Positions 24,781 to 59,808 of a stretch of 62,469 nt of DNA are shown here, piece by piece (positions within the stretch are counted from its first letter, which is position 1; every line of letters begins with the position of its first letter). This stretch comes from Acanthamoeba sp. SK_2022b. Taxonomy: Eukaryota; Discosea; Longamoebia; Acanthamoebidae. The stretch lies in the NCBI GenBank assembly GCA_027943245.1, contig JANDJZ010000188.1:1-62469 (forward strand). Reading direction: 5' to 3'. The notes beneath the pieces were generated by a model. That model was not told where the DNA came from. It saw only the letters and a list, made by a program, of their open reading frames with translations, and searched no databases. Made by a program: the position numbers and the translations under genes.

Positions 24781-25946
24781 CTATCCAATCCCATGGGATT
24801 GTGAGAAATGTACACTTGACAAAGCAGATAAAAGATAGTGTGAGTGTTTTTTGTAGAACTTGTGAACCTTCTGGAAGGCTTCATCAAAGCCTTCATTACT
24901 GCCAACATTGGTGGGCCACAGCTCCAGTGGGATGAAGTGTGAGACTGGTACAGGCAATGCTTCACCTTGTGCTTCGAACTTCAAGTTATCTGGTTGATAT
25001 TGATGTATAAGGTTGGGCAACAGAAGGCAGTTGTCGTTGTAGGAAGGAGAGGGGGAGCTTCAGTACCAGGGAGGCAGTATGCAGCATGGCTGCGTGGGGT
25101 AACAGCATCTTTTGGCCTCATAGGGTTGTTGGTGACCTGTAAAGCACATGCTAATGAAGTAAGCAGAGTGTTGGCCTGCTGGTAGTCGTCAAAGCTTGAG
25201 ATAAAGAGCATAAGATGATCAAGGTCAAAGGAGTTTGGTAGGGAAAGCTGGCTCCTAGCACTGTCATCTTCTCCTGTGTCATCCCACTGGAGCAGCACCA
25301 ATACAAATGCAGTGCAGTCCAGGCGGAAGTAGGTGCCATCTCGGAGGTTGGCCAGTGACCTCTGGAAGCCTTTGTTGAAGTTGTCAATCCACCAAGCATG
25401 TGGGAGGGAGAGGAGTGACAAGAACACAGCAGCCCGGTACAAAGCTACTCAGCTTCTGAGTAGATGAGAAAAGGTCTGTGCAGAGAGACTCAGCTCCATG
25501 TCACTCAGATAGTTTTTGCCTCTGCATGAAAGGCCTCTGGAGTGCAGTAAGAGGCTGTGATGAAACAGTGGAGCAGTGTTCTTGTTGCTGCGGCTCTTAA
25601 GAGTATGTTGAACCCAGAAGCTCCTGGCGCGCCACAGGTTTAACACAAGAGAGATGGTGGTTGAGGGGCAAAGGCAGCAGCACCACTTTTGGGCGTGTAC
25701 TTCCCAGATCTGCTGGCACAGCTGTTTGGGCAGAAGTGCACCTTCCTGCAACCAACGGCATGCTTGTCCAAGCAATGATTTCCTTCCATTCAGGAAAAAC
25801 CATGTCTCAAACAGAGCACCACCAGGCAGACCTGAGGGATGAGGTGTTAGCATTAAGCAATAGAAAGGAATTTGGTAAAGGGAAGAACTTGAGCACACAA
25901 AGGGTAACCAGTTGTGTATTCTGGAATACACAAACCATGTTATCAA
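24781..25946 (-). CDS. Minus-strand ORF group of the mobile block (unknown; candidate transposase)
   Basis: Adjacent minus-strand open frames run from about 25946 to a stop at 24781. They include KNYLSDMELSLSAQTFSHLL, then HAWWIDNFNKGFQRSLANLR, DGTYFRLDCTAFVLVLLQWD, and finally HFIPLELWPTNVGSNEGF with FQKVHKFYKKHSHYLLSALS. The family is not recognised. The W-W-I-D-N-F-N-K context and the divergent placement next to the methyltransferase gene would suit a DDE-type transposase, but I cannot identify a catalytic triad. Only its upstream part (about 25470-25946) is retained in copy 2. Introns are likely because the frames are broken. Confidence 0.3.
25916..25929. repeat. GTATTCTGGAATAC palindrome between the two divergent ORFs
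   Basis: A perfect 14-bp unit (inverted arms GTATTC/GAATAC around a TG spacer) near the centre of the divergent region. The equivalent place in copy 2 (about 47790-47803) has a degenerate version. Confidence 0.8.
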
Positions 25947-26379
25947 GTTACTGTTTGCCCAAGATTACCTGTGGTAGCATTGCAGAGCACAGCACTGGTG
26001 CTTGCAAGCAACCCTGGTGAAGGCTCCTGAGAGTTGGAAAAGCAGTATGCAAGCAAGTCCAGATACCCTGCTACATTTGTGCACTCCAACAGGAACACAC
26101 ACCTTTACAAACACATCACAAAAGTTGATACATGGAGCACACACACAAAGTCCATTCAAGACAATCAGTTGACAGAGCTGTACAGTTGTACAAAAGAGTC
26201 AGGTCTAAAAAACGCATAGGTTATTGCAGCGTTTGGAGAGCAGAGCTGATGAAGCAATTTTAAGGTGGTTGCTGCGTTGGCAGTGCGCAGTTTATGGCAC
26301 AAGCAAAATTTCTGCTTGTCAGTTGGGTTTTGTCAAGTCGCGCCACCACAGCCATAACCACATCACCACCATCCCAATC

Positions 26380-29300
26380 ATGAGTAAGAAGAGCATTGTT
26401 TCAATGCTGCCATGGTACCTTGAGTACAAGGAGGACCACGACTATGCAAGGTAAGTATTGATTAGCAAAGTCAGCCAAGATGATTCAATAATTACAAAAT
26501 GCATAAAGTGGGGGGGGGGCATACATTTGTTGCTGATTCCATCCACTAATGATGGGGAGTGTATGCACTTGGTTTCAGGCAGGTTGGACACAACCCCAAC
26601 ACCAAGTATGTGAAGCTGATGCAGGCAAAATTGGCTGGTGATACAAAATCAATTGCATGCCTTGGCATACTCTTGGACTTTGAGACAACTGCGCCAAAGA
26701 AGGAGGAGAATGCAACAGTAACATCCATTGCTGGGAAAGACCACTTTGTGGACCTCTACAACAAGGTAATGTGGGACACACTACCAAAGGAGCTCAAGGG
26801 CAGCATCAAAGGGAAACCAAAAGTTCAAATATTTCATGGTAAGCAACTTTCTTAGGTTGTATGTTTGCATCATGTCCATGGGTGCAAGTTTTTGGGGTTC
26901 TCATGCTCAGTGCATGAAAAAAGGATGGCAGTAATTGTATTCCAGAATACAAGATGCGTGGCTGCAAATTGCAGCAATTCACTTTTGTATTCTGGAATAC
27001 ATGACATGTCAAGTTGTATTCTGGAATATGCTCTACACACGCCTCTTGCTGATGCTTTTCCCTCAATCCTACAGGCAGGCTTGACCATCTCTTGAAGATG
27101 AGCAAGGCCTCACAGCAGCTGACCACCATACCCCCTTCCCCAAGAGGTGAGAAACATTGCCCTGCCAAGAGTGGTGTGGAGGACAAAGAGGAGGAACTTG
27201 ACATCAGCACCAGGCAAGTCAAAAAGAGAAAGATGATGAAGGATAGCCAGAGAAAGCGCAAGGGTAAAGACAAGCTGCCAATCTCAGCTTCATCTCCTTC
27301 TGAATCACCCAGCCCTTCCTCAGAAAGCTTGAGTGAAGAGGACACCATGGAAGCAGCAGGGCTACATGAGGCACCTGAAGAAGAAATCAGTGAGGCTGAT
27401 GTGTCATCCCAGTTAACCCACCCTATGCTTACTCAGCCATTGACTCCTCCCAGCCGCCCTGCTGAAGCCAATAGCACAGAGCGCAACTGGCCCAGTTCAC
27501 AGAGCATGCTGGACTGCCACGTGTGGGAAGAGCTTGCCCAATGTCCTTTTGATAGTATTGGAAGAGGAGGAGGAGCACATCATCTCAGTGCCTGCTGAGG
27601 AGGCCACACCTAAGCGTTGCAGTAAGAGAGAACAGAATGGTACATAGACCTCAGCTTGCAAATTAAATTATGCTTACAGCAACCATTCCACAAAACAGAG
27701 GAGGTGGAAGCAGTGGCCAAGTGGAATACCCGCATGGCAGAGGAACACAAACTCTTCAAGGGTGTTGTGGCTGACCCACTGTGGTTCTGTTGTCTGGAGG
27801 GCAAGGCTGCAGTGATGCTTGTTCGTCCTGTAGACCTTGCAATGGTGTGGAGGATAGCTGACAACATTTGCACAAACCCTGTAGCCATAACTGAGCCATT
27901 CTTCATTGTTGTCATCTGCCCTGAAGGTACACACAAACACACCATCGCTTGTTATTCTGGAATACACTGCAGCTGTTCTCAATTCCAGAATACTAACCTC
28001 CACTGCAGATGTCAAGAATGCTGCTCTGGACCGCGCCCACAAGGAGAACGCTTGCCTCATCTTGCATGAGCTATGCAAGAAATATGCTGGATGGGTAGCA
28101 GGTGGCAACCATCACTGGGAGGCCTACGTTTATCTCAAGGCCAAGGGGGTCCCCAATCCACAGCAGCATCACGCCTGTTGCCTCACAACTGTCTACTGGT
28201 GGCCAGACTACTCTGACACTGACATGATGGAGGTAGCACTTGTTGCTGCTCGCCAAAACACTGATGGGTCACTCTGCTCTGTGATGACCTTCAAGGATAA
28301 GGTGCCCTTGCTCTCTTGCTGTTATGGCACAACACCAGCTCACACCTCAAGACAGCTGCAGATGGCCAGGGCACAGTACCTTTGGCAGCCGCTCAAGGCA
28401 ATGAGTCAGGTTGACCTGGGCAGTGGTGACTTTCAAGGTTGCCATCAGTGGACAACGTCTGGCAAGGAGCGCACTGCTGCTGCTCTTGGCGCAAACAAGC
28501 AGAGCCTAGACCCTCTCTTCCAGCTCATGCACAACTGGGCGGATGTCTGGCACATCATTGAGGCACTTGTCTGTGGAAACCCCCTTGCAGATGTCACTTG
28601 AGTGCCTGACCTACACCCTCTGACCTCCATCACTTTGTTCTGGGTGCTGCAAGGGCTTGATGCCAACACCAAGAAGACTCTGCTTCTTAACCTTTACAAG
28701 GGCAAGCTCACTCCAAAGCAGTTCCAGAGGGATGCCATGGCAACCAAGGCATGTGCCAAGATCATGGCTGGTGTGATGGACATCCTGCAGAAGGAGTCAT
28801 GGGACCAGGTCCAGCAACAGATTCTACCTGCCACCCTTGAGGGCTTCATCTTGCAGTGGACTGAGACCTTCCTCTTGCACTGGTTGGGCAAGTGGGACTA
28901 CCCTGTGGACTTCAAGTCCCACATCCTAGCTCTGGTGTCGCCACAGGTGGTTGGAGTGGAGGACACAATGCAGATGTGGCGCCATGACTTCCCCAACAAC
29001 ACCACCATCTGTGCTGCAAATATTGCTCTTGGCAAGTACTCTATTGGGGCCCCCTGTAAAAATTACTACCACTCACTTATATTCCAGAATACCATCAAGA
29101 GATGAGCTGGTACAATTGTATTCCAGAATACTATTGTGATGGTCAATTGTATTCTGGAATACATCTCCACACTCATTGTTGTTTAGTTGCTTACATACTC
29201 CCCTTTCCAACTACAGCTCTGGTGATTATCGACCTTCCCTATGGCCTCACACCCTCCAAGGGCATAACTGATGCCAACCACTGGGACTACAAGCCCTACC

Positions 29301-30172
29301 CAGTTGAGAGCTTTAACACGCTCATCAACACAATCAAGATTGCCAACAAGCAGGCCAACTTTGTTGCAGTCATCTTCTGCAAGCACAGCCTTGCTTCCAA
29401 GTACACCAAGGTCATAAAGAAACACCACACTGGCTGCTCTGTTAGCCTTGGCGTCATGACACTGACCAGCGCCTGGGGCGGTGCTTGCCAATGGCTCTAC
29501 AACAACTTCAAGACCTACCTCCTCCTCCACTTTGGATCTAGCAATGACATGGTGTTCTTGCCAAGCGCTCCTGATGACTTCCAACTTTCCTTCTCCTGCC
29601 CTGCTCCAAAGCTCTGGAAGTCCAATTCACATGAGCCTCTCAACTATGGCCAGAAACCACTTGAGGCACTCAAGCGCTTCATCAGGATCTTCAGCCACCC
29701 TGGCCAGTGGATTCTCAATGCGTTTGCCAGCACACACTCTGCTTCATTAGCTGCCATTCTTCTTGGCCACAATTCCATTGCCATCAAGAAGGACCAGAGA
29801 CAGTGGCGTTTTGCCCAGTCTCACCTGCCACTTCTCTATGAGAGCCATTGTCCTGCCTCTTCTTCTACCTCTTCCACCTCCGTCGTGCTGCCCCTCAGCC
29901 CCCCTTTGCTTGGAGAGGCTCTCCCTGCAGCTCCAGTCGACCTCCCCAAGCCTCACAACCTTCCTTCCAGCCAGGACCTGTTTGCTGCTGACATCAACCA
30001 CTGCCCTGTCTGCCTTCGCTCCACTGTTGAGGCTCCTGGCGAGGTAGTGGCCTGCTCTGCTCCTGGGTGTGAGTACTCTGTTCACCAGGAATGTGTGTGC
30101 TTGGGTGAGTCTGGATGGTCATACTGCTCTGAAAAGTGTGTGCACAACATGCAGATGCAGTCTCAGGTGTAA
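26380..30172 (+). CDS. N4/N6 DNA methyltransferase-like protein with a C-terminal PHD-like finger
   Basis: The plus-strand gene has about six exons. The C-terminal half carries a permuted N6_N4-type methyltransferase order. Motif IV is IIDLPYGLTPSKGI (DLPYG, as in phage-type enzymes), followed by FVAVIFCKHSLASKYTKVI. Motif X/I is NYGQKPLEALKRFIRIFSHP, then GQWILNAFASTHSASLAAIL and LGHNSIAIKKDQRQW, matching the P-x-E-L-L-x-R-x-I...D-x-F-x-G-S-G-T pattern with a degenerate motif I. A PHD-like zinc cluster follows: CPVCLRSTVEAPGEVVACSA, CEYSVHQECVCLGESGWSYC, SEKCVHN. The N-terminal half (LTPKQFQRDAMATKACAKIM and others) is unrecognised. An in-frame TGA at 28599-28601 and degenerate motif I mean activity is uncertain. 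Intron borders are approximate. Confidence 0.6.
26937..27029. repeat. Cluster of three GTATTC-N2-GAATAC palindromes in the first long intron
   Basis: Units at 26937-26950 (CA spacer), 26987-27000 (TG spacer) and 27016-27029 (TG spacer, last base changed) lie between the KVQIFHG exon and the KMSKASQQL exon. Confidence 0.85.
27952..27993. repeat. Pair of TATTC-N2-GAATAC palindromes in an intron
   Basis: Slightly degenerate units at 27952-27965 and 27980-27993 flank the middle of the intron before the DVKNAALDRAHKENA exon. Both are kept in copy 2 (48975-48988 and 49003-49016). Confidence 0.8.
29079..29162. repeat. Cluster of three GTATTC-N2-GAATAC palindromes before the methyltransferase exon
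   Basis: Units at 29079-29092, 29118-29131 and 29149-29162 lie in the intron just before the exon encoding DLPYG. Copy 2 lacks this stretch through a deletion. Confidence 0.85.
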
Positions 30173-30191
30173 GCTTTTTACAGACTATGCA

Positions 30192-30205
30192 GTATTCCAG
30201 AATAC
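30192..30205. repeat. GTATTCCAGAATAC palindrome downstream of the PHD-like exon
   Basis: A perfect unit about 20 bp after the PHD-like exon, kept at 50930-50943 in copy 2. It may lie in a final intron, since both copies have a CAG|GTGT donor-like site at the end of the exon. Confidence 0.8.
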
Positions 30206-30480
30206 ATGGCTCTCCTCTCTTTTCTCTAATAACAAGCTCTCTTATTGTCTGTACTGCCCCCTTTCTTACCATTTCCAACCTTTTGCACACTCAACTGCTG
30301 CCTCCCACTGCTAAACGACCTACGGTTTTTTTTGGTGCAGGGGCTGTGTATCCTTATAGGTCTCCCATGCCCCCTTTGTGCATGCACTGCACAAACGTGT
30401 ACACAGGTTTGTTCATATTTACGTTTATCGTGCTTACAACACAGTTGTATGGGCGTATGGATTTAAATCCACTTAGATAA

Positions 30481-30757
30481 ATGCCAAGAAGATCACACAC
30501 TTACACATGACCAGATTGCAGACAATGAAGCAGGTGCATGCACATGCATGACAATGCAGTGGAAGGAGCTACAGCATCACTTGTTCACATGCAGGCGCAA
30601 GATGAAAGCACATTGTTTTTTGTGAACAAGATAACTTGGTTGATAGCTGTAATGCAAGTAAGACAATGTACCAGGTTGAGTAAAGCCTTTTTTGCTGATG
30701 ACCAACACGCCACACAGACTCCAAATCCCCTGGAGAGCCTGGAGCTGTACTTCTCCT
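30481..30757. repeat. Segment inverted relative to copy 2
   Basis: This stretch is the reverse complement of about 51224-51505. For example, ACTTGGTTGATAGCTGTAAT here matches the reverse complement near 51337-51360. In both copies it directly follows the common word GATTTAAATCCACT. It carries one unit of the minisatellite theme. Confidence 0.8.
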
Positions 30758-30879
30758 CAGGCTGTGGACAGAGTTGACATGGGCAGAGGCTTGAGCTGGC
30801 TGCATGCTGCCCACCTTCTCACTCATTTTTATTCTGTCACAACTACTCTGCTACTTCCTCAATGCTCCCAGGGACTCGG

Positions 30880-33332
30880 CCATTTATTGGAGGATGCACT
30901 TGGCGGACTGGGCGTCCTTCTTCTGGGGGAGGGCTTGGCGGCCGACGCTGGACTCCAGAGAGAGAGACGACTGACCTGCTCTCTCTGTTGCCGCAATTGG
31001 GTAGGAGCTGAACGAGGTGAGCTGTGACGATTACCTGTGGCGCCGCTTCTGCGGTTCGCAGGTGGCCAGCGATGCCAGCAGCAGCTCATCAGAGGAGCGG
31101 TGTAAGTCGCAGTACATGAGCTGGCTGCAGCCACGACTCAAGCGCTTTGCAACGAACAGAGGTGCGTACAACTTGTCTCGATATCGAGATCGCTTCGGAT
31201 GCGCGGAAAATGGACTCTAAAGCCATCGGGACGACTTTGATTGTCTCTCTTGGTTTTCCTCAACAGGGAGAGGGCTCGCAGCTGGTGCTCCAAGAGCGCA
31301 AACGCCGTCGTCTGCAGACTACGACCACCTCATCAAGTTCAACATTATCGGTGACGCGCGTACGCTCCTCTTCTGAAGACAAGTGTGAACCACACGCTCC
31401 AAACACACTCGCTCACACATACGTTTTCCAGGCGTCGGCAAGTCGGCCATCCACTCCCGCTTCATTCGGAACAAGTTCAACAGCTCCTACACATTAGGCA
31501 CCATCGGAAGGGATTTCGGCGTTCGGTCGATCGTAATGGCCGGACAGCGTCTGGAGCTGCAAGGTTGGCGCCTCGCCGTATTGTTTATGCATCGATTTGC
31601 CACCTTAATCAGTTGTGTCTCACATCTCCCCGTTGCGGTGCGCTCAGTGTGGGACATGGCCGGGGCGGAGCGCTTCTACTGCATCTCGCGGTCCTAAAGA
31701 AGCTAATGGACCGCGCATCATCTCCACCACAGTGGGGACAAAGACCGATCTGGAGTCTCAGAGGCAGGTGTCCCCTGAGGAAGGGCAGGCGATGGCCGAC
31801 GAGCTGGGCGCCGTCCACTGGGCCGAGGTCAGCAGCCGCACCGGAGAAAATGGTATGACACAATCGCCAGGCTACGAACCACACCAATCAGAGAGACTTA
31901 CACTCTGCTCTTGGTCTTGCTCATCCACACAAGTGACCGAAACCTTCTACCGCTTGGCCGAGGTGGCGTTGTTGGGCGTGAACCCATTCTCCCGTACGTG
32001 CGGCGGATTCCACGCCCCTCGGGAGGAGCTCCTGGAGAAGCTCTCTCTCTCACACACACACACGTGTAGGAATAGCATTGCAGCGGCCTACCGAACACGC
32101 TTGGGCCACGGAGCACAAGTCGTGAGGCTCGAGCAGGACCATGACGTGGAGCAGAACGTCATAGGGCATGAACAAGATGGGACACGTGCGGAAGCTCCAG
32201 CTCTTGATCAACTCGGCCACCTCCACATGACCACCCTGCCTCGCCGCCTGCGCGCAAGTGTGAATAGATATCGACAACAGTGGGCAAGCTATCATCGTGG
32301 CAGCGGCTGGATGAAACAAATACAAACCTCTATGGCATCGCCCTGATTGCCAGACAGTCTCGTGTTGGCGCGGCTGGCCAGGAGAAGCGACGCCACGGCT
32401 GCGTGACCGTAGCGAGCGGCATAATGGAGAGGCGTCTCCCCGTGCTTGTCGGCTATGTTGATGTGCTCGCCCACGTGGTCTGGGTTCTTCTATCAGTGGC
32501 CGTCCGCATCGAGTCATTCCCTGGCCCCTCTCCGACGGCCATGCACTCACCTTGCAGCAACAACTGGACCACGGGCCAGTTGCCTCGGGCGCAGGCCAAG
32601 TGGAATGGTGTCACCCCCTGCCGGTCAGGCCTGCGTCGACGCAGCGAGCCGAGATCAGCCCAGGGGCTTTGCTTTTTCAAACTCTCCTCCCCCCCCCCAC
32701 ACAAGCCATTGGGCGAGCTGTACGCTACGGGACTGGCGCCCGCGGACATGAGCATCTGCCAGAGCCTGATGGAGGGCGAAGGCATGGCCCAGTCTTGGAT
32801 GGCATTGGCCCACCTCGCTCCTACACTCGCGGGCGGCTGCCTCGTGTGGTAAGGAGTGTTGTAGCAGCCAGTGGTGGATGGTGGGGGGGGGGAGGTGGCG
32901 TGTGGTACGGGAGGAAAGGGGCCCTTCTGAGTCTCGGCCAAGGCGTGCAGTTCGCTCCTCTTGCCCTTTTTCTTCTTGGGGCAGGTGCCGCGGTCGATGA
33001 GCAAGCGGGCCATGGACAGGTTGAGGCACTTGACCGCGGCGAGCAGAGGCCACAGGCCCATGCCATCAGTCGCGTTCACATCGCAGCCCTCTGTTTTATA
33101 GCAGTGCACGCGTGAGTATAAACAAGTGTGCCTAAGTGCAGCGAGTAGAAGGTAGTGCAAGGTAGAGGAAGAAATAGTTCACAAAAGAGAGAGAGAGAGA
33201 GGACATACGAATGATGAGTGCCTGCACGCGCGCTTCGTCGCCGTCGACAACGGCCGAGGTAAGAGCGCTTGCGCTCACGCTTGAGGCTGAGGCGTCCTCG
33301 ACTGTGTACTCTTGGGAGGGGAAGCCACTCAT
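30880..33332 (-). pseudogene. Rearranged copy of the ankyrin/F-box/Rab fusion gene
   Basis: The N-terminal part is on the minus strand from ATG 33332 (MSGFPSQEYTVEDASASSVS). Ankyrin repeats follow (ADKHGETPLHYAARYGHAAV in an exon at about 32400) and then an F-box (FMPYDVLLHVMVLLEPHDLC) at about 32150. The Rab part follows in the wrong orientation, on the plus strand at 30990-32040. The last 70 bp of the gene reappear on the minus strand at 30880-30956, so an inner segment has flipped. The Rab part is also damaged. The exon after switch II is missing, so the frame stops soon after WDMAGAERF. The catalytic Gln of DTAGQE is replaced by Ala. The gene cannot make the fusion protein seen at 51.8-54.6 kb. 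Confidence 0.8.
30957..32045 (+). other. Inverted inner segment of the rearranged fusion gene
   Basis: The segment holds the end of the F-box part (DDYLWRRFCGSQVASDASS) and the Rab exons in plus orientation, while sequence on both sides belongs to the minus-strand gene. Both borders lie in short GAGAGAGA/CTCTCTCT runs (about 30957-30964 and 32041-32048). This suggests inversion between inverted dinucleotide tracts. Confidence 0.7.
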
Positions 33333-34742: not shown

Positions 34743-37192
34743 ATGCAGGTCGAAATAATTGAGGGAGGAAGCAGCCATAAGAGGCGGAAGCGGGGTAGAG
34801 AAACCGGAGGAGGTGCACCAGCACAGTTGCCCGCTTCGGCTGTCGGCAACGCTGCCCAGCAGCCACGACGGTTCGTGCGAGTGGATAGGCGAAGAGGGCG
34901 AGGACGAGGTAACCACGGTACTGGCAGAGGTGGCGGCGTGGCCGGGCGAGGAGGTCAGGACCCGAACTCAGGGCAGCCTACTGATCCGAAGCACAAGGAC
35001 AAGTACTTCGAGTTCTACCGCACCCTTTCGCCCACAAGTACGCTTCCTCCTGTGTCACAGTTCCTCCGATTGGCTTCTTGGCATCTTGCATCTTCTACTC
35101 ATCTCCAAACTACTTCAACCTTGCCTCTAGTCAAGAGGGTGGCGGTACGGGTCTTGCACTCCATACCCAAGCCTCCACTGAGCATGCTCTCCAAAGCGGA
35201 TAAGACGGGTACAGCCAAGCCGTCCAAGAAAAGGTGCAAGTCGAGCATTCCTGCCGAAGAAACCCGTAGCGCAAGCAAGAAGAGGAAGTTGGAAGAAGCA
35301 GAAGAAGGGGGAGAGGAAGCGACAAACAGCAGCGCGAACTTGATTTCCATCGTAGATGAAGGGCAGGTCATGCGTGGCAAGAAGGAGAAGAAACGGAAGG
35401 CCAAGCACCAAAACAAGAAGAGGAAGCTAGACATTAGTGAAGAGAAAGAGGAACAGGAGGAGGAAGACGAAGAGGAGATAGGGAGCAAGGACTGGCTGTC
35501 CTCGATCTCTCTCTACCTGGACGCTCCCCAACCAGCGCTCACAAGTCCCATCAAGGTGCTTGCTCGCCCTGACTGCCGGGGCTGGACTTACTCGAGCCCC
35601 TGATCTCAAAGTGCTTTCTGTGTTCGTCTTCAGATAAGGAAACGGGAGATAGCCTGGCCGACGGAGCAACCGGTGCTTCCTCGTAATCAGGCCGAGGTGA
35701 AAGCCGTGATCAAGAAGCACTCCAAGGGTCACTGGGGGCCAATACCCTTATCACCTTCCTTAGAGCGCGTGGTCGAGAAGCTGGCCGCGACTGGCGTCAT
35801 GAGCGTCTCCCAGATCCATTCCTACACCTTTTGGTACGATCCCTTTGTATCATTGCGAGCAGCGTACGAGAGCTGACTCCATCTTTCGCCCCCTGCGCAG
35901 GCTCAAGTCACAGCAGGCCATGTTTTGCTTTAGGGATCTCCAACGCCAAGGTGCTCATTCACCCCCATGCACGCATACAGCTTTCATCTTCGTTTGGTTG
36001 ACTCCACAGACCACATCTCTGTCATCAGCGAGCAAGCTCGCGCAGCTCTACGCCGAAGGCAAGTCAATTGTGGAACTTGCGACTGAATACGACTTTCCCC
36101 CCGTGGTAAGACGCCTCATTCGCCAGCTCGGGTCCTGAATGCCTCACGAAGCCGGCATGGTTATCGTTTCCCTCCCTCGTAGGCCATCTTTCGAGCCATC
36201 CTTACGAGCCGTGGATACTCGAAAAAGGCGCTCAAGCTGGCCATGGGCACCCAGGGTCCACGTTCTGGTCTGGACGAAAGGTAAGTGCAACTATCCGAGT
36301 CCCTCGTGTAGGCTCCTCTGTTCATAGTCCCTGTGATTAGGGACCAGATGGAGCTCACAAAGGCACGCGAAGCCGACATGATCACTACCGACCAGCACCC
36401 GCTCCAACTGACAAACGCCGACTTGTGCGCAAAACCTCTTTTCCCGCTTCTCTGTGAGTGGCTTGTTTGCTTATCTCTTGTTTGCATTCTCAGGTTCGAA
36501 TCCGAGATCGAGAAGTATTTAAAGTCACACAACGTCTCATTCAAGCGCCAGGGCGAGCTCGCTAGCGGTACGCCCGATCGTCATTCGCGAGCCCTGTGTC
36601 GCCCTACAAGGCGCTGATATTTCGGTCAATGCTACTCCATTCAGAGCAACGCCACTTCTTCCAGCACCAGTTCAGCACACCTGGTAATCACCTCCCACGG
36701 CATGAGACCATCTTGATGCTATTTTTTTGTATATGTCTGTGACCTCACTGCGTTCGCACATCAGACTTCTTGCTACTTGATGAGGTCTACATCAACGGCC
36801 ATCAGGTCCGATGGATAGACGCCAAGAACTACTATGGTTCTTCAGATGTCGCAGTTCGTTATCCTCTCCTTAGTTGCTGGTGGGTTGGCTCATATTACGT
36901 TCGTTGCTTCGCTGTTCGCCTCCGCAGATGCAGGTGGAGTCGATGAGAAAGCAGAGTCAGCGGTACATCGATCACTGGGGGCCAGGCGCCATCGTCTTTG
37001 CTCTGGTACGAGCGTGGGTCACCCACGCCCTCTCTTTGGTTTGGTGTGGCCCGGTTGCTCACCGTGTGTCCTGGCCCTCCGTGTACGTCGACACAGAGCT
37101 ATTGCAGCGATCTTCAGTTACCGACGTCTGCACTCAAGCTCGATGCATCCTCGTTTGATACAGCCCTTACGCTATCAGCCTACAGCGGCTGA
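34743..37192 (+). CDS. CDIN1 (C15orf41)-like PD-(D/E)XK nuclease
   Basis: CDIN1 is the codanin-1 partner mutated in congenital dyserythropoietic anaemia type I. The N-terminal 250 residues here are a long basic and acidic low-complexity extension (KHQNKKRKLDISEEKEEQEE) absent from the animal protein. Family blocks follow in separate exons: REIAWPTEQPVLPRNQAEVK, LAQLYAEGKSIVELATEYDF, AIFRAILTSRGYSKKALKLA and FESEIEKYLKSHNVSFKRQG. The nuclease core reads PDFLLLDEVYINGHQVRWID followed by AKNYYG, which gives PD...D-A-K as active-site residues. MRKQSQRYIDHWGPGAIVFA then matches the human YW-RFGPGLVIYW block. It ends at LTLSAYSG. About ten introns are present, and some borders are estimated. Confidence 0.75.
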
Positions 37193-37301
37193 TAACTCGC
37201 TTACCCATCTCCTTTGCTCGAGAAATACGCAATGAAATTTACGTCGGTATGAAGAACAGCTCGTCGTCTGACTGTGATCGCAGCAAGGAAGGAGAGCGCA
37301 A

Positions 37302-38440
37302 TTAGGAAGAGGGCTTGCTTTGGGCCTCGGCCTCGGCCTGCTGCTTGAGGGCGTTGAAGACCTGGCCAAACACCTCGGGCGCCTGTCCGCCCGCAAAGCT
37401 GATCCTGCGGTTGAATGGAGGAATGAGCGCGGACGGGTGCTGAACGCGCGGTGTGCGGCATGAGTGCAGGTAAGGCCGTACTTGTCATTGAAGACAAAGA
37501 AGGGAAGGCCTTCCGTTTGCTGCTCCTTCCAGAAGAGGTCGATTGTGATCACCCAATCAAGATCCTCCTCGGTGCCCAGGTACGTCTGCGCTCACAGACA
37601 CATCGGTGAGGTCACCTCCGCGAGCGAGGAAATCGAGAGGGAGTGGCAAGCGAGGGTCAGGAGTGTTCACCCGCACTTGCTCCTCGTCGAGCCCAGCATC
37701 CTTGGCAATCCCGGCGAGGACATCAAGCGAGCCGATGTTCTTGTCCTGCTCAAAGTACGCCGTGAAGAGGCCCTCGATCACCTGTAGAGTGAGAGAGATC
37801 AAGCAATGAGCGACTGACGAAGACGATCGACACTGCTCCCCGCTCCCGTTCGCGAAGTGGGGGTACCGCAGCCTGCTTGCCCTGGCGGTCGGCGTAGGCG
37901 AGCAGTCGATGGGCGTCGACCGTGTTGTTGATGGTTCCCTCGCCCACAAAATTGATACCCACCTCCTTGCCTAAAATGGAGACGGTGGTGGTGAGCAGAG
38001 AGGAAGGGGAGCGGTGAGTGGGCGCGCAGCTGCTCGTTACCGACAGACTTGAGGTCATCGAGCATGGCGTCGGCGCGAGCTCCGAGCTTCTGGCGGTGGT
38101 AGGTGCGCAGATCGACGCCCTCGCGAGGAAGGCCGGGCTGGAGGATGAAGGGGAGCCACTTGACCTGGGAGACAACGTTGCACGTTGGTGCGAGATGTAC
38201 ACAAGAGGAAAGAAGCAAAGAAGGCACCTCGAATTCGTATTGATCCGAGTTGCGCGCGATGGCCTGCTCAAGCCTCCTCTTGCCGATGAAGCACCTACCA
38301 ACGAGATTAGCGCATATGATACTACAATCGTGCAATAACAATACTGCACTCCAACTAGTGCACTTCATTCAAGCGCACCAGGGACAGATGGTATCCGCAA
38401 TCACCTTGATCGAAACCTTGAACTTCTGCCCACCCTCCAT
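37302..38440 (-). CDS. DSBA/FrnE-like thioredoxin-fold oxidoreductase, cysteine form
   Basis: This is a predicted thiol-disulfide oxidoreductase of the DSBA (PF01323) superfamily, nearest to FrnE and 2-hydroxychromene-2-carboxylate isomerase-like proteins. It starts MEGGQKFKVSIKVIADTI, and the active site is CPWC with the following CFIGKRRLEQA. The first Cys codon is TGT (38384-38386). An intron splits the Trp codon after exon 1 (38440-38379). Later blocks are KWLPFILQPGLPREGVDLRT, VGINFVGEGTINNTVDAHRL, AYFEQDKNIGSLDVLAGIAK, WKEQQTEGLPFFVFNDKY, then ISFAGGQAPEVFGQVFNAL. It stops at 37302 after KPSS. It is a close paralogue of the gene at 58676-59808, with the same first intron position. No signal peptide is seen, so a cytosolic site is likely. 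Confidence 0.9.
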
Positions 38441-47178: not shown

Positions 47179-48974
47179 TGATTCTTCTTTTCTCGAGCAT
47201 TTTTTTTTTGAGCTAGTAAAACCCTGCAGCATAACTGAGGCCGTCAGATCATAGGCGCTGTTCACCAAGGTGAGCTTGAGGGCTGTGGACAATGACACAG
47301 TGCCACCACAGCCCATGGTGGGCACCAGCAAAATTTTGAGCTTGTTGCACATTATGTTGAAGGGGGAGGAGACAGCAAGTGTCCAGGCCATATGTCTATC
47401 TTTTTCACAAATTGCATGCACTGACCAAAATTCTCTGCACAGAGAGACTCAGCTCCATGTCACTCAGATAGTTTTTGCCTCTGCGTGAAAGGCCTCTGGA
47501 GTGCAGTATGAGGCTGTGATGAAACAGTGGAGCAGTGTTTTTGTTGCTGCAGCTCTTATGAGCATGTCAAACCCAGAAGCTCCTGGCGCGCCAGAGGTTT
47601 AACACAAGAGAGATGGTGGTTGAGGGGCAAAGGCATGCTTGTCCAAGCAATGATTTCCTTCCATTCAGGAAAAACCATGTCTCAAACAGAGCACCACCAG
47701 GCAGACCTGAAGGATGAGGTGTTAGCATTAAGCAATAGAAAGGAATTTGGTAAGGGAAGAACTTGAGCACACAAAGAGTAACAGGTTGTTTATTCTGGTA
47801 TACACAAACCATGTCATCAAGTTACTGTTTGCCCAAGATTACCTGTGGTAGCATTGCAGAGCACAGCACTGGTGCTTGCAAGCAACCCTGGTGAAGGCTC
47901 CTGAGAGTTGGAAAAGCAGTATGCAAGCGAGTCCAGATACCCTGCTACATTTGCACACTCCAACAGGAACACACACCTTTACAAACACATCACAAAAGTT
48001 GATACATGGAGCATGCAAAAAAAAAAGACAATCAGTTGACCAAGCTGTATAGTTGTACAAAAGAGTCAGGTCAAAAAAATGAGTAGGTTATTGCAGCATT
48101 TGGAGAGCAGAGCCAATGAAGCAATTTTAAGGTGGTTGCTGCATTGGAATATGCTCTACACACACCTCTTGCTGATGTGGCACCTTTTCCCTCAATCCTA
48201 CAGGCAGGCTTGACTGTCTCTTGAAGTTAAGCAACTTCACAGCAGCTGCCCACCATACCCCCTTCCCCAAGAGGCAAGAAACATTGCCCTGCCAAGAGCA
48301 GTGTGGAGGACAAAGAGGAGGAACTTGACGTCAGCACCAGACAAGTCAAAAAGAGAAAGACAACAAAGGATAGCCAGAGAAGGCACAAGGGTAAAGACAA
48401 GCTGCCAATCACATCTTCCTCTCCTTCTGAATCACCCAGCCCTTCCTCATAAAGCTCAAGTGAAGAGGACACCATGGAAGCAGCAGGGCTACATGAGGCA
48501 CCTGAAGAAGAAATCAGCAAGGCTGATGTGTCATCCCAGTTATCCCACCCTACGCTTACTCGGCTGTTGGCTCCTCCCAGCAGCCTGCCCTGCTCTGAAG
48601 CTGATAGCATAACTTGCCCAGTTCACAGAGCACGCCAAACTGCTGCGTGTGGGAAGAGCTTGCCCATTGTCCTTTTGATAGTATTGGAAGAGGAGGAGCA
48701 CGTCATACAGCAACCATTCCACAAAACAGAGGAGGTGGAAGCAGTGGCCAAGTGGAATACCCGCATGGCTGAGGAACACAAACTCTTCAAGGGTGTTGTG
48801 GCTGACCCACTGTGGTTCTGTCATCCAGAGGGCAAGGCTGCAGCACTGCTAGTTCACCCTGTAGACCTTGCAATGGTGCAGAGGATAGCTGACAACATTT
48901 GCAATAGCCATAACTGAGCCATTCTTCATTGTTGTCATCTGCCCTGAAGGTATGCACCAACACACCATCACTTG

Positions 48975-49016
48975 TTATTCTGGAATACACCGCAGCTGTT
49001 CTCAATTCCAGAATAC
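48975..49016. repeat. Pair of TATTC-N2-GAATAC palindromes, copy 2
   Basis: Units at 48975-48988 and 49003-49016 correspond to those at 27952-27993. They keep the same spacing although the flanking exons have diverged. Confidence 0.8.
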
Positions 49017-50929
49017 TAACCTCCACTGCAGATGTCAAGAATGCTGCTCTGGACCACGCCTGCAAGGAGAATGCTAGCCTCATCTTGCACAAGCTATGCA
49101 AGAAATATGCTGGCTGGGTAGCAGGTGGCAACCATCACTGGGAGGCCTTCATTTTTCTCAAGGCTGAGGGGGTCCCTGATCCACAGCAGCATCATGCCCA
49201 CTGCCTCACAACTGTCTACTGGTGGCCAGACTACTCTGACACCAACATGATGGAGGTAGCACTTGTTGCTGCTCACCAAAACACCAATGGGTCACTCCAC
49301 TGTGTGATGACCTTCAAGGATAAGGTGCCCTTGCACTCTTGCTGTTATGGCGCAACAGCTGCAGATGGCCAGGGCACAGTACCTCCAGCAGCCGCTCAAG
49401 GCAACTAGTCAGGTTGACCTGGGCAGTGGCGACTTTCAAGGTTGCCAACAGTGGACAACGTCTGGCAAGGAGCTCACTGCTGCTGCTCTTGGCGCAAACA
49501 AGCAGAGCCTAGACCCTCTCTTCCAGCTCACACACAACCAGGCAGATGTCTGGCACATCATTGAGGTGCTTGTCTGTGGAAACCCCCTTGCAGATGTCAC
49601 ATGAGCACCTGACCTACACCCTCTGACCTCCATCACTTTGTTCCAGGTGCTGCAAGGGCTCAATGCCAACACCAAGAAGACTCTGCTTCTTGGCCTTTAC
49701 AAGGGCAAGCTCACTCCAAAGCAGTTCCAGAGGGATGCCATGGCAACCAAGATCATGGCTGGCGTTATGGACATCCTGCAGAAGGAGTTGTGGGACCAGG
49801 TCCAGCAACAGATTCTACCTGCCACCCTCAAGGGCTTCATCTTGCAGTGGACTGAGACCTTCCTCTTGCACCAGTTGAGCAAGTGGGACTACCCTGTGGA
49901 CTTCAAGTCCCACATCCTAGATGTATTCTGTTGTTTAGTTGCTTACATACTCCCCTTTCCAACTACAGCTCTGGTGATTATCAACCTTCCCTATGGCCTC
50001 ACACCCTCCAAGGGCATAACTGATGCCAACCACTGGGACTACAAGCCCTACCCAGTTGAGAGCTTTAACACGCTCATCAACACAATCAAGATTGCCAACA
50101 AGCAGGCCAACTTCGTCGCAGTCATCTTCTGTGAGCACAGCCTTGCTTCCAAGTATGCCAAGGTCATAAAGAAACACCATGCTGGCTGCTCCATTAGCCT
50201 TGGTGTCATGATGCTGACTGGTGCCTGGGGTGCTTGACAAAGGCTCTACAACAACTTTGAGACCTACCTCCTCCTCTGCTTTGGATCTAGCAACAATGTG
50301 GTGTTCTTGCCAAGTGCTCCTGATGACTTCCAACTTTCCTTCTCCTGCCCTGCGCCAAAGCTCTGGAAGTCTGAGTTGCATGAGCCTCTCAACTATGGCC
50401 AGAAACCACTTGAGGCACTCAAGTGCTTCATCAGGATCTTCAGCCACCCTGGCCAGTTGATTCTTTGCTGGCACACACTCTTCATTAGCTGCAGTTCTTC
50501 TTGGCTGCAATTCTGTTGCTGTTGAGAAGGACCAGAGACAGTGGCATTTTGCCCAGTCTCACCTGCTGCTTCTCTATGAGAACCATTGTCCTGCCTCTTC
50601 TTCTACCTCTTCCACCTCTGTTGTGCTGTCCCTCAGCCCCCCTTCACTTGGAGATGCTCTCCCTTCAGCTCCGGTTGACCTCCCCAAGCCTCATGACCTT
50701 CCTGCCAGCCAGGACCTGTTTGCTGCTGACATCAACCACTGCCCTGTCTGCCTTTGCTCCACTGTTGAGGCTCCTGGCAAGGTAGTGGCCTGCTCTGCTC
50801 CTGGGTGTGACTACTCCATTCACCAGGAAAGTGAGTGCTTGGGTAAGTCTGTACAGTCATACTGCTCTGAAAAGTGTGTGCACAACATGCAGATGCAGTC
50901 TCAGGTGTTCACTTTTTACAGACTATGCA

Positions 50930-50943
50930 GTATTCCAGAATAC
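50930..50943. repeat. GTATTCCAGAATAC palindrome, copy 2
   Basis: A perfect unit equivalent to 30192-30205. Confidence 0.8.
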
Positions 50944-51830
50944 ATGGCTCTCCTCTCTTTTCTCTAATAACAAGCTCTCTTTTTGTCTGTATTGCCTGTT
51001 TTCTTACCATTTCCAACCTTTTGCACACTCAACTGCTGCCTCCCACTGCTAAACGACCTACGGTTTTTTTTGGTGCAGGAGCTGTATATCCTTATAGGTC
51101 TCCCCTGCCCCCTTTGTGCACTGCACAAACGTGTACACAGGTTTGTTCATATTTATGTTTATTGTGCTTACAACATGGTTGTATGGGCATATGGATTTAA
51201 ATCCACTCAGACATATACAGCCTGAGGATAAGTACAGCTCAAGGCTCTCCAGGGGATTTGGAGTCTGTGTGGCGTGTTGGTCATCAGCAAAAAAGGCTTT
51301 ACTCAACCTGGTACATTGTCTTACTTGCATTACAGCTATCAACCAAGTTATCTTGTTCACAAAAAACAATCACTCAGTGCTTTCATCTTGTGCCTGCATG
51401 TGAACAAGTGATGCTGTAGCTCCTTCCACTGCATTGTCATGCATGTGCATGCACCTGCTTCATTGTCTGCAATCTGGTCATGTGTAAGCATGTGATGGTG
51501 GTGGTCTTCTTGGCATTTAAGCTCATGCACCTTTTTTCTCACTGTGGCATGAATGTCCTTCCTGATGCCTTGTACATGATTAGGTGGTAAATGGCAACAT
51601 GATCACCCACAAAACATGTCCATACATGCCAAGTGGGCTGGTAGCTGTGAGGGTGTGTGATTATAATGCAAGAACCTTCCAAGCTTTTTGTTGGGATTTG
51701 TGTCGTTCGTTTCAATTTCATCCAACTCCGGGAACTTTGTTGCACCAGCCCAAGGAGCCGTGGACGCTCAGCGAAACTCCCACGGCAAGAAATACCAAGG
51801 CATCCCCCCTTGGCAAAAAAGTGCAATAAC

Positions 51831-54617
51831 ATGACCAACGTGGCCAGTGGCTTCCCCTGCCGAGATTACACAGTCGGGGACGCCGCAGTCTCTAATGCAA
51901 GCACTATTGCCTTGGCCATTGCCGATGGCGACGAAGCGTGTGTGCAGGAACTCATTCGTATGGTCCTCTCTTCTTGGAAACTTTCGCCTGCACAGCCCTT
52001 TGGTTTTGCCTCCAACACACTGAGGGCTAAAACAGAGGGCTGCGATGTGAACGCGACTGATGACATGGGCCTGTGGCCTCTGCTCGCCGCGGTCAAGTGC
52101 CTCAACCTGTCCATGGCCCGCTTGCTCATCGACCACGGCGCCTGCCCCAAGAACGACCAGAGGGGCGAACTGCACGCCTTGGCTGAGACTCAGAAGGGCC
52201 CCTTTCCTCCCGTACCACACGCCACCTCCCCCCACCATCCACCACTGACACTCACCAAACGAGGCAGCCGCCAGCGAGTGTAGGAGCGAGGTGGGCCAAT
52301 GCCATCCAAGACTGGGCCATGCCTTCGCCCTCCATCAGGCTCTGGCAGATGCTCATGTCCGCGGGCGCCAGTCCCGTAGCGTACAGCTCGCCCAATGGCT
52401 TGTGTGTGGGGGGGGAGGAGAGTTTGAAAAAGCAAAGCCCCTGGGCTGATCTCGGCTCGCTGCGTCGACGCAGGCCTGACCGGCAGGGGGTGACACCATT
52501 CCACTTGGCCTGCGCCCGAGGCAACTGGCCCGTGGTCCAATTTTTGTTGCGAGGTGAGTGCGTTGGCCGTCGGTGAGGGGCTGGGCAATGACTCGATGCA
52601 GACGGCCACTGATAGAATAAGTCGTCTCCCAGGGGAGCACGTGGGCGAGCACATCAACATAGCCGACAAGCATGGAGAGACGCCTCTCCACTACGCCGCT
52701 CGCTACGGTCACGCAGCCGTGGTGTCGCTCCTTCTGGCCAGCCGCGCCGACACGAGAGTGTTTGGCAATCAGGGCGACGCCGCAGAGGTTCGAATATGCG
52801 CTCTCCAGCGGCCACATGATGCTCTCCACCTTGTCGGCACTCATGCACTCACGCACACCGGACAGGCAGCGAGGCAGGGCGGTCACGTGGCGATGGCCGA
52901 GTTGATCGAGAGCCGGAGCTACCGCGCGTGTCCCATCTTGTTCATGCCCTACGACATTCTTCTCCACGTCATGGTCCTGCTCGAGCCTCACGACTTGTGC
53001 TCCGTGGCCCAAGCGTGTTCGGTAGGCCACGTGTGCGTGTATGTGTGACGACTGCCGTGCTGACCTGCTCTCTCTTCTCTTCTCTTCTCTTCTCATCTCT
53101 TCTCTTCTCTTCTCTTCTCTTCTCTTCTCTTCTCTTCTCTTCTCTTCTCTTCTCTTCTCTTCTCTTCTCTTCTCTTGCGGCAATTGGTTAGGAGCTGAAC
53201 GAGGTGAGCAGCGACGATTATCTGTGGCGCCGCTTCTGCGGCTCGCAGGTGACCAGCAGCAGCTCATCGGGGGAGCGGTGTAAGTCGCAGTACATGAGCT
53301 GGCTGCAGCCACGACTCAAGCGCTTTGCAACGAACAGAGGTGCGTGCAACTTGTCTCGTTAGAATGAAACTCTAAAGCCATCGGCCCTCTCTCTCTCTCT
53401 CTCTCGATTTTCATCAACAGGGAGAGGGCCTTTTATAAAGACAGCTGACATTCCAAGAGCGCCAACGCGAGCGCATTGCTTCAAGTTCAACTTGATCGGT
53501 GACCCGGGTACATTAAGCGTCAGCCTCCACCACACCACACCACTAACCACGCATCAGGGGTCGGCAAGACGACCATCCACTCCCGCTTCATTTGGAATAA
53601 TTCCAACAGCCGCCCCCTCACCATCGGCTCTTCTATCGGTACTCGGTCGATCGAGATGGAGGGACAGCGCCTGATGCTGCAAGGTTGGCGCGCCTCCCTT
53701 TTTGTTAATTCATCGATTTTATGTTTTCGTCGGTTGTGGCTAACAGCCCTCCCTGTCGCTGCACGCTCAGTGTGGGACACGGCCGGGCAGGAGCGCTTCC
53801 ACAGCATCCCACGGACCTACTACCGCGGGGCGCACGGCGTGCTGGTGGTCTATGACGTCACGAGACGCGATTCATTGGCTAACTGCAAGCACTGGATCGA
53901 CGAGATGAAACGCCTGTTGCCTGAAAACCAAGCCATGACGCCCTTCCTCTTGGGTGAGCCCAGCAACCTTTCTTGTGTGTTGCGTTGCGTTGCGTTGCGT
54001 TGCGTTGCGTTGCGTTGTGTTGCGTTGCGTGTTGTGTGTGTTTCCACCGATAGGCTAACAGGCTACGCGCACCACCACCTGACCACCACCTGACCACCAC
54101 CTGACCACCACCTGGCCACCACCTGACCACCACCTCACCACCACCACCACCACCACCACCACCACCACCACCACCACCACCACCACCACCACCACCACCA
54201 CAGTGGGGACAAAGACCGACCTGAAGTCCCAGAGGCAGGTGTCTCCAGAGGAAGGGCAGGCGATGGCCGACGAGCTGGGCGCCGTCCACTGGGCCGAGGT
54301 CAGCAGCCGCACCGGAGAAAATGGTAGGCCACGACACAATCGATCCACAGCCAACGAACCAAACCCCAAACCATTTCCTCACACTCTCTTCTTCTTGCTC
54401 TTGCTCAATTTCCTCCATACAAGTGACCGAAACCTTCTACCGCATGGCTGAGGTGGCGCTGCTGGGTGTGGACCCGTTCTCCCATTGGCGGGCCTGTGGC
54501 GGCTTCCACGTCCCTCGGGAGGAGCTCCTGGAGAAGCTCTATGCTGAGTCCAGCGTCGGCCGCCAAGCCCTCCCCCAGAAGAAGGACGCCCAGTCCGCCA
54601 AGTGCATCCTCCAATAA
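51831..54617 (+). CDS. Ankyrin-repeat / F-box / Rab GTPase fusion protein
   Basis: One gene encodes three modules. Exons 51831-51957, 52036-52211, 52268-52401 and 52474-52553 join in frame into ankyrin repeats (DVNATDDMGLWPLLAAVKCL, QGVTPFHLACARGNWPVVQF, INIADKHGETPLHYAARYGH). An F-box follows (ILFMPYDILLHVMVLLEPHD, then ELNEVSSDDYLWRRFCGSQ). A short basic linker leads into a Rab/Ras-type G domain: G1 FNLIGDPGVGKTTIHSRF, switch I with TIG, G3 VWDTAGQERFHSIPRTYY, then GVLVVYDVTRRDSLANCKHW. G4 reads VGTKTDL, with Thr in place of the usual Asn. It ends in a CaaX-like CILQ, suggesting prenylation. Such a protein could couple SCF ubiquitin ligase recruitment to a membrane GTPase switch; this is inference. 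A defective relative lies at 30880-33332. Confidence 0.8.
53068..53177. repeat. (TCTTC)n repeat in the intron between the F-box exons
   Basis: About twenty CTTCT units, with one interrupted unit, lie just before the acceptor of the ELNEVSSDDYLW exon. Confidence 0.95.
53973..54040. repeat. (GTTGC)n repeat in a Rab-domain intron
   Basis: About thirteen units of GCGTT, some with GTGTT, begin shortly after the donor following PFLL. Confidence 0.95.
54068..54204. repeat. (CACCTGACCAC)n minisatellite running into (CAC)n in the same intron
   Basis: Six or seven 11-bp units (ACCACCTGACC) are followed by about twenty CAC triplets that end directly at the acceptor before VGTKTDL. Intron length is therefore set almost wholly by repeats. 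Confidence 0.95.
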
Positions 54618-58675: not shown

Positions 58676-59808
58676 TTAGTCGCCGCCGGTCTTCTTGAGC
58701 ATGTGGAAGACCCGCTCAAACGTCTCGGGCTCCTGAGCGCCCGAGAGGTTGATCCTGCAGGCAAACCGCACGTTCAGCCAAAGGCGCACACACAGGACGA
58801 CAATCGCACGCGACCCGTTGAAATGCGTACTTGTCGTTGAAGATGAAGAAGGGCACGCCACCGATCTGCTGCTCCTTCCACTGTTGGTCCATATCGAGCA
58901 CCCAATCAAAGTCTTCTTCGCTCTGTAGATAGGTCTGTGCATTGGTGATGTGCGGGTGAGCTACTCGCGAGGGCCTGGCCAACACATCAAACGCATTGCC
59001 TGGGAGTAGGCACCTTCACTTGCTCTTCATCGAGACCGGCCTCCTTGGCAACACTCGCGAGGACGTCATGCGATCCGAGATTCTTGCCCTGCTCAAAGTA
59101 GGCCTTGAAGACGCCTTCGATCACCTGTTTGTTGTTATTGTTGTTGATAGTTGTTGTTCTAAGAGTGAGTGGGAGAGACGGATGTGCACATGAGCAAGGG
59201 AAAGGGAGCCTACCTCGTCTTGCTTGCCCTTGCGATCAGCATATTCAACAAGACGGTGCGAGTCGATGGTGTTGCCAATGACACCGTCAGCGGCAAAGTC
59301 GATACCAACGGTTCGGCCTGTAGTTGGCGCCACGAATGTGTGAGCAGCAGCAAGTACTGACATCGTATGGCTCGACGGGACCCACCAACGTTCTTGAGAT
59401 TCTCCATGGCCGGGATGGCACGAGCGCCAAACTTCTGAAGATAGTAGGTGCGCTTGTCCACACCTTTCTTGGGCAGCGTAGGCTGTAGCAGAAAAGGAAG
59501 CCACTTGACCTGGGCGAGCGCACGCAGCGTGTTAGTGGCTGTGCATGTCCCGAGACTTACAGTTTAAAGTGGGAGGGGGCACTACGTGGAACTCGAACTG
59601 GTCGGCATTGCGTGCCATCGCCTGCTCGAGCCTCCTCTTCCCTACGAAGCACCTGTAGGAGCATTTAAATAATGGTTGTTATCAATTAATTTGACTGTTT
59701 AGTCTTTTGCAAGGGTGTTCTTGGCCAAAATGTGGAAGCTCCATAGTACCAAGGTCATACGTTGTCCGAAACGACCTTAATTGTAACCTTGAACCTCTGT
59801 CCTTGCAT
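58676..59808 (-). CDS. DSBA/FrnE-like selenoprotein candidate (UPWC active site)
   Basis: Seven exons (59808-59750, 59652-59586, 59509-59386, 59317-59214, 59124-59014, 58934-58831, 58754-58676) sum to 648 nt, or 215 residues. There is exactly one internal TGA, codon 18 at 59755-59757. The start reads MQGQRFKVTIKVVSDNV, then TGA, then PWCFVGKRRLEQAMA. The paralogue at 37302-38440 has TGT at this place, giving CPWC, and shares the intron inside the Trp codon. The rest is intact: FLLQPTLPKKGVDKRTYYLQ, VGIDFAADGVIGNTIDSHRL, AYFEQGKNLGSHDVLASVAK, KEQQIGGVPFFIFNDK, and a C-terminus of MLKKTGGD. With the downstream SECIS-like hairpin, TGA is best read as selenocysteine. A conventional predictor would truncate or re-start this gene. 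Confidence 0.87.

Follow-up and report, generated by a model that had tools for sequence, protein, structure and literature searches.

The DsbA/FrnE-family gene and its in-frame UGA

The stretch of DNA analyzed here (hereafter the window) spans 62,469 nucleotides of an Acanthamoeba contig (C356), whose genes look spliced on inspection by eye. Of the five profilin matches in the assembly, two were compared with the PDB, and both fit 1f2k/2acg, 1acf and 1prq/2prf, the profilins of Acanthamoeba castellanii, much more closely than all remaining chains (E below 10−65, against 2 × 10−32 or above 10−33 for the next), in keeping with an Acanthamoeba source. On its minus strand, between positions 59808 and 58676, lies a gene of the DsbA/FrnE family that is a candidate for selenocysteine (Sec) incorporation. 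Its seven exons, separated by six introns that all display GT-AG borders, join into a coding sequence of 648 nt, a multiple of three, which contains a single internal stop, namely a TGA at codon 18 (59757-59755) that is predicted to encode Sec. This structure bears out that proposed in an earlier note made from the sequence alone. Exon 1 (59808-59750; 59 nt) begins with the ATG at 59808, contains the TGA and is followed by the donor GTACTA; exon 2 (59652-59586) codes for the second active-site cysteine and also holds the first downstream start codon, the ATG of codon 32. They are followed by exons 3 (59509-59386), 4 (59317-59214), 5 (59124-59014) and 6 (58934-58831), and by exon 7 (58754-58676), which ends in a TAA stop. 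The model is based on homology and splice signals rather than on RNA from the gene, and it is supported by relatives that cross the downstream exon junctions without inserts: three of them (P0002, P0003 and P0004) span these junctions, and a fourth (P0007) spans three before diverging at the start of intron 5.

The read-through protein matches the Pfam DSBA profile (PF01323) with 124.6 bits (cut-off 25.6; E = 5.3 × 10−36) over residues 9-204, covering positions 1-188 of the 191 in the profile. Structure matches over residues 7-202 were obtained with FrnE (5cnw, E = 4.8 × 10−28, and 5cp1), which we take to be the Deinococcus protein, and with SCO1869 (3gl5). These share the family with our gene by sequence, and the active site in 5cp1 reads CPWC; in contrast to it, they are bacterial cysteine proteins. 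The one NCBIfam match, to a thioredoxin-like (seleno)lipoprotein family, was rejected as lying far below its cut-off (26.2 against 190 bits).

A cysteine-containing paralogue is situated 21 kb away on the same strand (38440-37302; first exon 38440-38379, last exon 37404-37302). It too has seven exons, with a frame of 675 nt devoid of internal stops, an intact CPWC motif and all six intron positions in common with the UGA-containing gene; exons 2-6 are of equal length in both (67, 124, 104, 111 and 104 nt). The two proteins are identical at 137 of 215 aligned residues, counting the TGA as cysteine, and their alignment places the TGA in the column of the first cysteine of CPWC, as the earlier note had stated. 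Of the 13 matches of the protein in the assembly, 12 fall on C356 within these two genes, and the remaining one, on another contig (C106), shows 37% identity.

Selection across the UGA and possible splicing around it

We then compared the two genes codon by codon. Over the 197 codons that follow the TGA, dN is 0.25 and dS 1.31 (dN/dS 0.19), with 46, 39 and 95 differences at the first, second and third codon positions, respectively. The 17 codons preceding it give a dN of 0.20 and a dS of 1.65; the UGA is flanked on both sides by conserved coding sequence. With the splice sites also intact, the claim that the rest of the protein is preserved and conserved stands. These values bear directly on the alternative that the TGA marks a pseudogene, with a cysteine codon mutated in a decaying duplicate, or else a misread base in the assembly. 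Both TGT and TGC lie one base away from TGA, and a complete cysteine paralogue exists within the same window, as such a scenario would have it. Yet the frame downstream of the TGA bears the mark of purifying selection, contrary to what a pseudogene would show: had the TGA-bearing copy drifted since the duplication, a higher dN would be expected. The intact splice sites, a SECIS-like hairpin on the correct strand and the closest relatives, which seem to be interrupted at the same site (both discussed below), also count against decay or error, and we regard this alternative as very unlikely.

A donor-like hexamer, GTATGA (59760-59755, minus strand), contains the TGA, the last base of which is 5 nt from the modelled donor of exon 1. 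Alternative splicing, from this or another GT of exon 1, might thus be proposed to excise the stop; GTATGA is a plausible donor, and 23 combinations of donor and acceptor keep the frame open. However, all 23 remove the TGA codon along with the following Pro-Trp, and 22 of them also remove the second cysteine, with the one remaining combination dropping residues 6-20. None of the open combinations pairs GTATGA with the conserved acceptor of exon 2, which begins at 59652, and splicing of this kind would leave the hairpin unexplained. We hence consider it even less probable than decay or error.

Relatives, truncated entries and history of the family

A search with the read-through protein as query recovered 831 proteins. 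Among the best 120 listed, a regular-expression sort yielded 104 with CPWC, seven with other motifs and nine without any, while an alignment of the same proteins resolved 111 with CPWC, one with CPWR (P0117) and eight that start downstream of the site. Truncated forms served as queries for a second search, which was hence biased to them; it matched 1862 proteins, of which 120 were listed, and brought the set to 229 proteins. In the resulting alignment of 231 rows, the UGA column shows CPWC in 176 (including the query, entered with C at the TGA), CPFC in two, a gap owing to a later start in 49 and other residues in four. The comparison with homologues that had been suggested for this column therefore finds cysteine there in DSBA/FrnE relatives.

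Among the 10 closest listed relatives, seven start downstream of the site (P0002, P0003, P0004, P0006, P0007, P0008 and P0009, with P0006 labelled Stereomyxa). Four of these (P0002, P0003, P0004 and P0007) begin with M-A-R-N, which corresponds to codon 32; in our gene, no ATG, GTG or TTG stands between the TGA and this codon. These four are 72-82% identical to the predicted Sec protein and 61-69% identical to the cysteine paralogue. The earlier expectation that gene finders would begin such a gene downstream is matched by the annotation of four of its closest relatives from the first start codon after the UGA, which suggests that these proteins, known here from their protein entries alone, have been cut at the active site in the databases. 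Some relatives are short for different reasons, including exon boundaries (P0129 and P0130 start at about the onset of exon 3), and the truncated proteins do not form a single group in the tree: a test that counted the query as CPWC, since it was entered with C, required 10 changes, and 16 of 500 shuffles were as low. Given these two points, truncation by itself carries little weight as evidence. More telling is that four of the closest relatives start at the first possible codon after the TGA.

These annotations could also be taken at face value, with the UGA as an ordinary stop and a functional protein made from Met32 without the CXXC site, just as gene callers begin the four close relatives there. 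Such a protein would be a thioredoxin fold without its active site; moreover, the coding part of exon 1 is conserved (the above 17 codons), and the hairpin would have no explanation. This reading appears to us as improbable as the splicing alternative.

For a phylogenetic view, we used a tree of 42 hand-chosen rows of the 231, restricted to the region after the active site. Here, the cysteine paralogue lies within the group of P0002, P0004 and P0003 (supports 96/94, 89/94 and 86/81), the UGA-containing gene falls outside this group with weak support (94/31), and a cysteine protein (P0001) is placed further out. If the truncated P0002, P0003 and P0004 are Sec forms, the cysteine paralogue would, with moderate support, be derived from a Sec-containing ancestor. 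A search pattern matched 19 stretches of viral contigs, none of them a relative. A scan of prokaryotic genomes, which reaches close relatives only and in which one pattern included the cysteine, found one relative (L028) in 77 stretches, with the cysteine codon TGC at the UGA column; Sec-containing relatives may also exist there.

A SECIS-like hairpin in the 3′ flank

The search for a SECIS element proposed in the earlier note recovered a SECIS-like hairpin on the coding strand (58575-58503, minus), starting 109 nt beyond the stop codon in the 3′ flank; the hairpin is absent from that note and is newly recognized here. Its core comprises ATGA (58566-58563), AAA (58550-58548), which opens the apical loop, and TGA (58517-58515) on the 3′ side, with a helix of 12 pairs. 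It was detected both by the Rfam SECIS_1 model and by a pattern scan. First, the hairpin matches SECIS_1 across the whole model with 24 bits, below the gathering score of 35 (E = 0.1 for the 2-kb locus against 4227 families), and is the best among the four Rfam matches listed in that locus. When the whole window is searched, its E-value is 3.2, with lower values for SrbA, CrcZ (twice) and IRES_Bip, and no Rfam match within the 62,469 nt exceeds its gathering score. Second, the pattern scan, with a pattern composed after the hairpin was already known, returns no site other than this one on either strand of the window, and gives a match in six of 5000 dinucleotide-shuffled versions of the flank. 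Third, its fold is more stable than that of shuffled sequences (z = −3.28), two of 200 shuffles being equally stable.

We also searched the 44.9-Mb assembly (1129 contigs) with SECIS_1, with 133 of 326 candidates scored and matches accepted to an E-value of 10. Three matches were obtained, none above the cut-off, and the hairpin ranks second (24 bits, E = 0.54). Scaled from this search, the chance expectation for an equally good match in the 606-nt flank on one strand is about 4 × 10−6. The third match (L003; 19.6 bits, E = 8.5), located in what by eye is a leucine-rich-repeat-like gene, was taken as chance. The same search matched in four of 14 control prokaryotes, in none above the cut-off.

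The top match (L001; 24.8 bits, E = 0.32, likewise below the cut-off) provides an internal yardstick. In the numbering of L001, it lies at 1564-1501 and begins 311 nt past the TAA of a large thioredoxin reductase-like frame that ends in Gly-Cys-TGA-Gly-TAA (1890-1876, minus), an ending shared with the TrxR-L of Acanthamoeba castellanii. Passages of PMC8038987 and PMC11459619 describe this TrxR-L as a selenoprotein with a SECIS, reported 282-355 nt downstream in strain Neff, and the frame found here is likely the counterpart of that gene. If so, the top two matches in the assembly are the counterpart of a published SECIS and our hairpin, both of which score below the Rfam cut-off. TrxR-L resembles the gene studied here in being an Acanthamoeba selenoprotein (predicted in our case) with a SECIS, and differs in being another enzyme, with Sec adjacent to the C-terminus.

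Downstream of the cysteine paralogue, neither the pattern scan with relaxed settings (36700-37301) nor Rfam (36700-37310) found a SECIS, and we accordingly rejected the idea of a fossil element in its 3′ flank.

The Sec machinery in the assembly

The earlier note had made its reading depend on the presence of the Sec machinery, which is borne out in greater part: tRNA-Sec(UCA) and eEFSec are present, as are SepSecS and SelD, whereas a Sec-form SPS2 was not seen among the SelD matches in the assembly and SBP2 was not identified. The tRNA-Sec search gave 11 matches, of which the two above the cut-off both have the anticodon UCA according to ARAGORN, which assigns L006 to tRNA-Ser. One of the two (L005, on C500) has surroundings that look eukaryotic by eye and is taken as the amoeba's own tRNA-Sec; the other (L004, on C315) sits among long open frames that look bacterial. 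SepSecS is represented by five matched stretches on C31, and eEFSec by one stretch on C720 (E = 5.9 × 10−22), with no match in any of the 14 control prokaryotes. A SelD on C203 was recovered as five stretches, each under the whole-protein cut-off, and its spliced active site reads G-C-G-C-K, i.e., with cysteine rather than Sec. The search for PSTK gave KTI12-family matches on C406 and C396, which bear neither way on PSTK. An L7Ae-domain search directed at SBP2 gave six matches on four contigs; these were rejected as SBP2, for they resemble, as we judge them, L30e, NHP2, SNU13 and L7a.

The strongest SelD match, a single bacterial-looking frame on C367, lies beside a frame that we presume to be SelU-like. 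Three contigs of bacterial appearance (C315, C367 and C775, the last two with L010 and L011) carry long intronless frames; on them we place the second tRNA-Sec, this selD with its presumed SelU-like neighbor and a presumably ThiL-like frame. Bacterial contamination is thus the apparent source of one of the two tRNA-Sec genes and of the strongest SelD match. For A. castellanii, a published survey reports a fusion of NifS with SPS, along with further candidates for SPS2.

A predicted selenoprotein and its possible role

Taken together, we hold it highly probable (about 0.92) that this gene encodes a DsbA/FrnE-family selenoprotein, predicted from sequence, in which UGA takes the place of the first active-site cysteine and the SECIS-like hairpin would likely recruit the Sec machinery. 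The selenoprotein reading advanced in the earlier note is supported by the 3′ element, most of the machinery, purifying selection and the relatives seemingly interrupted at this point. The hairpin would act through an SBP2-type protein and eEFSec, with the UGA read as Sec, and the product would present a U18-P-W-C21 active site in a DsbA-like thioredoxin fold. Its selenolate would attack disulfides or oxidized thiols, with Cys21 resolving the intermediate. Passages of PMC2874816 describe the upstream cysteine of DsbA as exposed and the more important of the two; by analogy, Sec at this position should raise reactivity. As no leader is apparent by eye, a cytosolic role as a disulfide reductase or isomerase, like that of FrnE, is more likely than one in secretory oxidative folding.

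The DsbA/FrnE selenoprotein family, with Sec at the first cysteine, is already established in eukaryotes, a point that the earlier note does not mention. DsbA selenoproteins are described in Ciona intestinalis, C. savignyi and Branchiostoma floridae (passages of PMC2874816) and, like the gene reported here, carry Sec at the upstream cysteine of CXXC and a SECIS within their 3′ flank. The segment of exon 1 that holds the Sec-TGA had earlier been misannotated as UTR in Ciona. Unlike these animal proteins, ours is from an amoeba and has a cysteine paralogue 21 kb away. Marine invertebrates, as partly covered in PMC3473315, also have Sec-containing DsbA; they resemble the family of our gene in showing both Sec and Cys forms, but these are metazoan lineages. 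Likewise, the FrnE/DsbA selenoproteins of Mamiellophyceae, Mesostigma and other algae (passages of PMC6627142 and PMC7539508) are Sec-containing oxidoreductases, though of algae, with no amoeba named in those passages. Among the papers listed on amoeba selenoproteins and on Sec-containing DsbA/FrnE, none presents a Sec-containing DsbA of an amoeba in its title or opening lines; the literature consulted further includes PMC8038987, PMC11459619, PMC4561486 and PMC6155587. A supplement or another paper may contain such a prediction. PMC8038987 set aside 10 proteins of A. castellanii that resemble PDI or DsbA, which it gives in a supplementary list. The present gene therefore likely extends the family to Acanthamoeba, a new lineage, and adds a probable selenoprotein to this organism beside TrxR-L and the SPS2 candidates, as far as the cited portions of that literature go.

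With the UGA placed in exon 1 of seven, a lack of selenium would stop translation after 17 codons and might expose the mRNA to nonsense-mediated decay, leaving the cysteine paralogue as a possible selenium-independent counterpart. A broader scenario, which we offer only tentatively and think less probable than its negation, is a natural Sec/Cys switch: an ancestral Sec-containing DsbA/FrnE gene would have duplicated, with one copy losing its SECIS and reverting to cysteine, so that one enzyme would now exist in a version for selenium-replete conditions and in another that is independent of selenium, the Sec copy being turned off by nonsense-mediated decay at low selenium; the Sec form would be widespread in Amoebozoa and annotated without its active site. 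In any event, a paralogue with a common exon structure offers a natural comparison for the contribution of selenium and for the direction of Sec/Cys exchange.

Other features of the window

The next gene downstream of the UGA-containing gene (58065-56536, minus) resembles by eye the beta subunit of AMP-activated kinase, with a glycogen-binding-like domain. Elsewhere, the window features a repeat of roughly 4-5 kb in two copies (25475-30765 and 47434-51519), with pieces that are 88-95% identical, one of these pieces being inverted. A frame in the first copy (29102-30169) codes for a DNA methylase domain (PF01555, N6_N4_Mtase), and the repeat is possibly a mobile element with a DNA methyltransferase. 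A second duplicated block (30976-33329 and 51846-54540), partly inverted and with pieces 72-84% identical, contains a frame with ankyrin repeats (32453-33160). Finally, a frame at 6525-7073 on the minus strand codes for a homeodomain (PF00046; E = 5.2 × 10−21).
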